From contig PBAO01000032.1 in NCBI GenBank assembly GCA_002715985.1, positions 1 through 46,220 on the forward strand: a stretch of DNA of 46,220 nt, given 5' to 3'. The DNA is from Lysobacterales bacterium. GTDB taxonomy: Bacteria > Pseudomonadota > Gammaproteobacteria > Nevskiales > Salinisphaeraceae. Under the pieces are notes generated by a model. The model worked only from the letters and a program-made list of their open reading frames with translations. It was not told where the DNA came from and searched no databases. The translations under genes and the position numbers were made by a program. Positions 13,656 through 15,271 of this stretch are shown piece by piece; within the stretch, counting starts at the first letter, position 1, and every line of letters begins with the position of its first letter.

Positions 13656-14348
13656 GTGGCATTGAACAACGCCCAGCGAGCCGCGTTTCGGGCGCTGGCC
13701 GCTGATATCGAGGGTATCGATACGTCGGTATACGAGCGCTTCGCGGCCGATCCGGCCGAACCCGTGATCGGCCTGGGGTGGGCCGATGCGCGTATCGGTT
13801 TCTTTGGCCGTGACCCGGGCCGGGACGAAGTGCGCTACGGCGAGCCGTTCATCGGTGCGGGCGGGCAACTGGTGCGCAAAACGCTGTATCGGGCGTTATA
13901 CGGCGCCGAACTGCCGGATTTCGAAACCTCGCGGTGCGTCGGACGCGATTTCTTCTGGGTCAACACGGTGCCCTACAAGCCGGCCGGCAACAAAGCCTGG
14001 TCGATGAAGATCAAGCGTCGCTTTCACCCGCTGATGCGCGCCTTGCTCATCGATGCCTGGCAGGGACGTGACCTGATCACGCTGGGCCGCGAGGCGTTTC
14101 TGTGGTTCGGGATCGATCGCCCCAAGGCCGAGCGCGACGCTATCGAGGCGTTCTGGCAAAGCGAAACCCGATTTTCTGCGTCTCTGACGGTCTGGCTGGC
14201 CGACGAGGACGGGCGCGACGAGGCCTTTCGGTTGCATCCTTTGCCGCATCCGTCGCCGCTGAACGCAACCTGGTACAAGCGCTTTCCCGATCTGCTGAGC
14301 GCCCGGCTGGCCGCGCTCGATGTCCGGCCGGATAATCTGACGGTCTAG
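13656..14348 (+). CDS. Uracil-DNA glycosylase superfamily protein
   Basis: A 230-residue protein of the uracil-DNA glycosylase fold. Motif A appears as GFFGRDPGRDEVRYGEPFIG followed by AGGQLVRKTLY, closely parallel to the G-E-x-P-G-x-x-E-x-x-x-G-x-P-F-V-G block of families 4 and 5. The C-terminal HPLPHPSPLNATWYKRFPDL contains the H-P-S-P-x-N active-site loop. Only one cysteine is visible, so the four-cysteine iron-sulfur site of family 4 is absent. A base-excision or related DNA-repair role is likely, substrate unproven. The start is GTG 13656; no strong ribosome-binding site is evident. Its TAG stop lies in the CTAG that flanks a MITE-like insertion. Confidence 0.8.
   Translation: MALNNAQRAAFRALAADIEGIDTSVYERFAADPAEPVIGLGWADARIGFFGRDPGRDEVRYGEPFIGAGGQLVRKTLYRALYGAELPDFETSRCVGRDFFWVNTVPYKPAGNKAWSMKIKRRFHPLMRALLIDAWQGRDLITLGREAFLWFGIDRPKAERDAIEAFWQSETRFSASLTVWLADEDGRDEAFRLHPLPHPSPLNATWYKRFPDLLSARLAALDVRPDNLTV
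14345..14348. repeat. Left CTAG target-site duplication
   Basis: CTAG immediately outside the left end of the MITE-like element, matched by CTAG at 14603-14606. It contains the TAG stop of the DNA-glycosylase-like gene. Confidence 0.6.
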
Positions 14349-14364
14349 GGGTGTCGTCATGAGA
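14349..14364 (+). repeat. Left terminal inverted repeat
   Basis: GGGTGTCGTCATGAGA; pairs with the right repeat over 14 contiguous bases. Confidence 0.7.
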
Positions 14365-14585
14365 CAAGGCGGCGCATCGGCGGCCAGGCCGCGGCAAGAC
14401 CGGGCATTGCGAGCGTCGCGTGGTCGTTCCACGTGAGCCAGCCCCTAAAAATCAACCATGGCGCAGGATTGTCGGGGCTTGGCCGCCGACCCATCGCCAT
14501 ATTTTGAGGGTTGCCCGCGGCGGACGCGCCATGCGGCGTTCCGGGCCTTGCCTGATACGCCCGGAGCGGGCAATGCGACGTCATA

Positions 14586-14602
14586 TCTCATGACGACACG
14601 CC
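14586..14602 (-). repeat. Right terminal inverted repeat
   Basis: TCTCATGACGACACGCC on the + strand; the reverse complement aligns with the left terminal repeat with one extra C near the tip. Confidence 0.7.
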
Positions 14603-14606
14603 CTAG
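14603..14606. repeat. Right CTAG target-site duplication
   Basis: CTAG just outside the right end of the MITE-like element; read on the - strand it provides the TAG stop of the HAD phosphatase. Confidence 0.6.
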
Positions 14607-15271
14607 AATCGGCGCACGTGCAAGGCACCACTGGCGTCCTGTTCGGCCGAAAGATGGGTGTAGTCCGTGATCTGTTCGTGATCCGCCGCTGCGGCCAGTG
14701 GTGCCGGATGACCGGCGGTGACGACCAGCACAGCCGCGCCGCTGGCCTCGGCGGCGACGATACCGGCCTCGGCGTCCTCGAAGATCAGGCAGGATTCCAC
14801 GGGCACCCCCAGTGCCGCCGCGCCTTTATGAAACGGTTCGGGAGAGGGTTTGCCCTCGGTGACGTCGTCACCGGCGATCAGCGTGGCCGGCATGGGCAGG
14901 CCGGCCGCCGCGATCCGGGCCTGGGCCAGGCGGCGCGGCGCTGATGTCACGATCGCCCAGCGATCGACCGGCAGGCTGGCCAAGAACGCCGGCGCGCCGG
15001 CGATCGGCTCGATACCGGCGACATCATGGATCTCGGCTTCCATGATCGCTGCGGCTTCGGCCTCGATATCGATACCGGTCACGCCCGAATCGCGCACTGT
15101 GTCGATTCCGCGCTTGCCGTGAATCGTGGGCAGAAACTCGGCCGGGTCGAGCCCATGCTCCAATGCCCAGCGATGCCAGACGCGTTCGGCGGCCGCGATC
15201 GAGGTCAGCACTGTGCCGTCCATATCGAACAGAAAGACACCGTGGCCGGCAGAAGAATAGACACGAGACAT
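14603..15271 (-). CDS. HAD-superfamily (subfamily IA) phosphatase
   Basis: A 222-residue HAD hydrolase with all four motifs: I, FLFDMDGTV, nucleophile and acid/base aspartates near residues 16-18; II, the serine or threonine in AIVTSAPRR; III, the lysine in TEGKPSPEPF; IV, the acidic residues in LIFEDAEAG. A helical cap lies between motifs I and II, as in sugar-phosphate phosphatases of the YfbT/YniC or 2-deoxyglucose-6-phosphatase type, the most likely activity. ATG 15271 places motif I at the usual distance; upstream in-frame codons lack similarity. The stop lies in the right CTAG flank of the MITE-like element. Confidence 0.88.
   Translation of the reverse strand: MSRVYSSAGHGVFLFDMDGTVLTSIAAAERVWHRWALEHGLDPAEFLPTIHGKRGIDTVRDSGVTGIDIEAEAAAIMEAEIHDVAGIEPIAGAPAFLASLPVDRWAIVTSAPRRLAQARIAAAGLPMPATLIAGDDVTEGKPSPEPFHKGAAALGVPVESCLIFEDAEAGIVAAEASGAAVLVVTAGHPAPLAAAADHEQITDYTHLSAEQDASGALHVRRF

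Follow-up and report, generated by a model that had tools for sequence, protein, structure and literature searches.

A Salinisphaera MITE with IS5/IS427-type ends that recurrently sits on the stop codons of its host genes

We identified a non-coding miniature inverted-repeat transposable element (MITE) of 256 bp with IS5/IS427-type inverted repeats between two convergent genes in a contig of 46,220 nucleotides (the window, that is, the whole stretch of DNA that was analysed). Both flanking genes end on a TAG stop codon, the third base of which is supplied by the element's terminal G. The locus is not an isolated case, as sitting on stop codons is recurrent in the repeat family to which the element belongs. 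The most likely explanation is that an IS5/IS427-derived MITE is tolerated at stop codons because its insertion there is silent.

The element occupies positions 14,348 to 14,603, without an assigned strand, and is supported by matches in its own genome, an alignment of 29 copies of the family and an empty site. The left terminal inverted repeat (TIR) GGGGTGTCGTCATGAGA lies at 14,348-14,364 on the plus strand and the right TIR GGGCGTGTCGTCATGAGA at 14,586-14,603 on the minus strand. The arms are identical over 14 nt (GTGTCGTCATGAGA) and extend imperfectly to 37 nt with 78% complementarity; the left arm in the window is one C short of the family consensus (GGGGTGTCG versus GGGCGTGTCG). As read from the window, CTAG brackets the element at 14,345-14,348 and 14,603-14,606, giving the arrangement CTAG-GGGTGTCGTCATGAGA...TCTCATGACGACACGCC-CTAG. 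The open reading frames listed for the window include no transposase frame inside the 256 bp. Being short, bounded by TIRs, present in dispersed copies and accompanied by a target-site duplication and an empty orthologous site, the element is a MITE. A preliminary description of this DNA had already pointed to a MITE-like element with 14 identical terminal bases bracketed by CTAG, and this description holds for the element of 256 bp delimited here.

A search for the terminal repeat in the genome and its relatives, as suggested in the preliminary description, revealed a family that is spread over the genus Salinisphaera at unrelated sites. The own genome contains 36 DNA matches, the best of which cover the full length with 92-94% identity, and a reversed-pattern control gave no matches in the same genus genomes, so the likeness is not due to chance. 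The own genome has 16 exact copies of the 17-nt end CTAGGGCGTGTCGTCAT, a sequence present in 7 of the 14 Salinisphaera genomes. When 84,980 species genomes were searched with a 21-nt end pattern, 70 stretches were found, all in Salinisphaera except two: an IS fragment with the same end in Rickettsia and a stretch in a Rhodospirillaceae metagenome-assembled genome. In the Rickettsia endosymbiont of Culicoides newsteadi, far outside the Gammaproteobacteria, the 3'-terminal part of an IS5-type transposase gene (L233:1-125) closes with a near-identical inverted repeat, GGGCGTGTCGTCACGAGAT, which is adjoined by CTAG. Flanking sequences suggest that two insertions are shared across species (G003 C42:61043 with G005 C27:43775, and G000 C29:20245 with G013 C13:20412), and some copies may therefore predate speciation. 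Salinisphaera also has another intergenic repeat, about 200 bp long and high in copy number (in the flanks of copy L010, at G013 C2:17747-17940 and C34:59651-59830, and at about 15 more places); it has the core of the MITE (model positions 44-236), not its ends, and often lies about 50-60 bp from a gene.

The genes on either side of the element in the window are convergent. The first, at 13,656-14,348 on the plus strand, encodes a member of the uracil-DNA-glycosylase (UDG) superfamily (Pfam UDG, 2.1e-15), and the second, at 14,603-15,271 on the minus strand according to the gene call (longest open reading frame to 15,466), encodes a HAD-family phosphatase (Pfam Hydrolase/HAD_2). The UDG stop TAG is formed by positions 14,346-14,348 on the plus strand and takes its third base from the first G of the left TIR, and the HAD stop TAG is formed by 14,605-14,603 on the minus strand and takes its third base from the first G of the right TIR. 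The closest relative, S. japonica (G013), has the same gene pair without the MITE and reads ...CTGACGGT-TTAG-CCGGGCACGG..., in which TTAG carries both stops, TAG for UDG on the plus strand and TAA for HAD on the minus strand. The two genes overlap further, by about 17 nt, in UBA1666 (G010). Taken together, these two relatives indicate that the 3' ends most likely overlapped originally and that the arrangement in the window is derived. The ancestral four-base double stop proposed in the preliminary description, together with the empty site it predicted, is thus found in S. japonica, but as TTAG with a HAD gene ending in TAA, not as a single CTAG providing two TAG codons. Its statement that neither protein was changed is exact for UDG only, which ends on LTV, at the same residue, whether or not the MITE is present; the HAD tails differ, HVRRF in the window versus HVRRHAVPG in S. 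japonica, due to a 12-nt in-frame difference adjoining the site.

The position of element ends relative to predicted genes was determined in eight Salinisphaera genomes, with genes called by a simple codon model trained on a sample of about 1.02 Mb of S. japonica containing 830 genes. Of 121 element ends, 50 fall exactly on the stop codon of a predicted gene. In S. japonica, a gene's TAG stop consists of TA plus the G of the element at 15 of 44 clean ends, corresponding to 15 of about 27 insertions. The own genome contributed 13 of 31 ends (after copy L012 was corrected by one base by hand), UBA1666 17 of 28 and the five other genomes 5 of 18, and both edges of one copy (L144) coincide with gene stops. 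The background was taken from S. japonica alone, where CTAG is depleted 8.6-fold (401 sites in 1.02 Mb, where base composition predicts 3,467); stop codons account for 82 of the 401 sites, coding sequence for 139 and intergenic DNA for 180. The 50 ends compare with a per-end expectation of 43/401 (about 11%) for all CTAG sites (p = 4e-18) and of 43/262 (16%) for non-coding CTAG sites (p = 7e-11), p-values that are only guides since the ends are not all from separate insertions. Counted per insertion in S. japonica, 15 of 27 on a stop versus 82 of 262 in the background gives p = 0.008. None of four intact IS copies examined, a small sample, was located on a stop codon. The stop bias could not be attributed to a longer target motif, as the flanks show no more than C at -1 and a weak G signal at -4. 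Among 114 convergent gene pairs in the 1.02-Mb sample of S. japonica, ten overlap by exactly the four bases of their stops.

These observations are very probably explained by a non-autonomous MITE that a transposase of the IS5 family, IS427 group, mobilises in trans. The element would insert at YTAR, mostly CTAG, and duplicate TA. A TAA or TAG codon cut at its TA would be rebuilt as TAG at the edge of the element, on either strand, because both element ends begin with G. At a YTAG overlap of convergent stops, one insertion would restore both codons and move the genes 258 bp apart. Insertions at stop codons would survive and accumulate because CTAG is rare in coding sequence and because such insertions are silent; we infer that this selection for harmlessness causes the enrichment.

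Simple tolerance would require a smaller enrichment above non-coding CTAG than that observed, and two further readings can be considered. The first is that stop codons form a niche, in which YTAR targeting, the two-base duplication and the terminal G make landing on TAA or TAG silent, and occupancy is raised beyond that given by the four-base motif by a further cue, for example the context of 3' ends or continuing selection for a hairpin there. We consider this extension possible but tentative. The second, which we consider unlikely, is that the 260-bp hairpin terminates transcription in both directions or stabilises mRNA at the 3' end, with copies at stops being positively selected. Besides the excess over the non-coding background, the very stable fold of the MITE (z = -8.0) and a covariation of the consensus fold above that of shuffles (36 versus 13.5 for cells changed on both sides) would fit such a role. 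However, no intrinsic terminator with a T-tract was found in the scan, the covariation is mostly confined to a few pairs that separate subfamilies, palindromes are expected in MITEs regardless, and the compared sites are mostly occupied in one species and vacant in the other. Silent insertion of a tolerated MITE remains the preferred reading.

According to the preliminary description, the stops had been saved by duplication of a palindromic CTAG. A four-base duplication in the YTAR style of the IS5 group agrees with the CTAG found at both edges of 15 of 18 intact copies with TA on both sides, and a CTAG or YTAA duplication has been reported for MITEPsy1 of Pseudomonas syringae (PMC3189936). 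At a CTAG target, however, duplication of TA by an element that ends in G produces the same sequence as duplication of CTAG, so only targets other than CTAG can discriminate. At L011 the empty site reads GTAG and the filled site GTA[G...C]TAG; at L145 the empty site reads CTAC and the filled site CTA[G...C]TGC, TG having replaced TA in the right copy; at L144 and L007 the sequence is CTA[G...C]TAA, with CTAA as right flank; and a related IS copy (L127) shows the same edge pattern, CTAG..CTAA. The left edge is G in all four MITE copies, and the base beside the target is in each case a G or C that belongs to the element. Since the edge G and C at these sites derive from the element, the duplicated unit would be TA. 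CTAG as the duplicated unit is disfavoured by these four insertions and the IS copy, and we regard it as improbable. The target duplication is thus most likely TA, judging from the site sequences, with the outer G and C belonging to the MITE, and duplication of TA would be the general rule for the family. For the element in the window, the putative TA copies lie at 14,346-14,347 and 14,604-14,605, as deduced from the empty sites of sister insertions and from duplication variants, and the third base of each stop would come from the terminal G of the element instead of from a duplicated CTAG. Across 107 distinct flanks, the position outside TA is occupied by C in 79% and by T in 14%. Copy L010 lies within another host repeat; 16 uninterrupted copies of this repeat extend across the site, mostly with a single CCCAC-TAG, which also fits a duplication of TA. 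The TA adjoining the element is often changed to CA on the left (L005, L006, L140, L150) or TG on the right (L158, L166, L167); these changes (CTAGGG to CCAGGG) are mostly one-sided and are recurrent T-to-C changes, like products of very-short-patch repair.

A candidate cognate IS was found in S. hydrothermalis. It is 836 bp long, has nearly the TIR of the MITE, contains two overlapping frames and carries CTAG at both edges; a sister IS of 835 bp is present in G011, and the ends of these elements include GGGCGTGTCGTCACGAGATA. Both encode an IS5 family transposase (PF13340 and PF01609; NF033580 at 1e-42 and 1e-40). IS427-group elements are 832-865 bp long, some have two overlapping frames, and they mostly generate 2-bp duplications (PMC3281130). 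The candidate agrees with this group in its IS5 DDE transposase, its two overlapping frames and its size within the 830-870 bp range, and a 2-bp duplication, TA, is given by the MITE sites other than CTAG and by the related IS copy L127. The IS5-family origin put forward in the preliminary description is thus supported by both the TIRs and the duplication length, and these two features suggest that the MITE is mobilised in trans by a transposase of the IS427 group. A transposase of this kind, for which that description proposed a search in the genome and its relatives, was detected in S. hydrothermalis and G011, but no IS5_3, DUF4096 or NF033580 transposase was found in the draft genomes of the high-copy carriers G000, G013 and G010, so the mobilising enzyme in these carriers is lost or hidden in assembly gaps. 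It is very improbable that an IS630/Tc1-mariner transposase moves the MITE: such enzymes likewise duplicate TA and prefer CTAG, but an IS630-type DDE_3 gene occurs in only one of six carriers, no DDE_3 transposase with the TIR of the MITE was found, and it is an IS5-family element that is bounded by nearly the same TIR.

Truncation of longer genes by the element, recorded by the gene calling as stops at its edges, is conceivable since an in-frame insertion always yields TAG and GC-rich frames stay open long, but it is the least probable explanation and is rejected as the cause of the bias on the basis of the uninserted orthologs of 17 genes ending at an element edge, 13 of which end at the same residue and the other four within five residues. 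These insertions therefore sit at pre-existing stops and have not created new truncations. The 13 ortholog stops at the same residue are TAG in five, TAA in four and TGA in four cases, and all are TAG after insertion; as TGA cannot be a target, the four TGA cases require a switch of stop codon in one lineage. A second insertion in a CTAG double stop was found at L002, where the empty site of S. japonica, GGCTAGTC, serves both convergent genes.

Among known elements, the IS427 group (for example ISPaes1, ISPpa6 and IS1248) resembles the family described here in the 836-bp relative with two overlapping frames and an IS5 transposase, in TIRs of about 14-20 bp and in the 2-bp target duplication, but differs in that the MITE in the window is only 256 bp long and transposase-free; a stop-codon bias of IS427 elements is not reported in the papers found. 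MITEPsy1 is likewise an IS5-type MITE with CTAG/YTAA targets and has been shown to be mobile; in contrast, it is 100 bp long, has a different TIR and a reported 4-bp duplication, and no link to stop codons is reported for it. The pneumococcal BOX, RUP and SPRITE repeats are MITE-like and also enriched between convergent genes. BOX is the nearest precedent for the supply of a stop, as it provides the stop codon of 36 pneumococcal genes without clear truncation (PMC3049150). The BOX stop lies within the repeat, whereas at the MITE the target TA combines with the element's first base to form the stop, precisely where the old one stood and at either edge. The open-access literature searched yielded no account of an IS or MITE that routinely lands on stop codons. 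The element is a new member of the IS5-type MITEs, and, as far as this literature goes, its habit of occupying stop codons that are rebuilt by its own first base is undescribed.

This arrangement would provide a simple route by which a transposon can spread harmlessly in a gene-dense genome. Stop codons hold a large share of the sites that can be cut, and the element's own end would mend the cut, by which stop codons, including the four-base double stops of head-on genes, may become safe landing sites. Insertion at stop sites also offers an explanation of how overlapping convergent genes can be separated undamaged, and a clear prediction follows for every TA-duplicating element with ends that begin with G or A.
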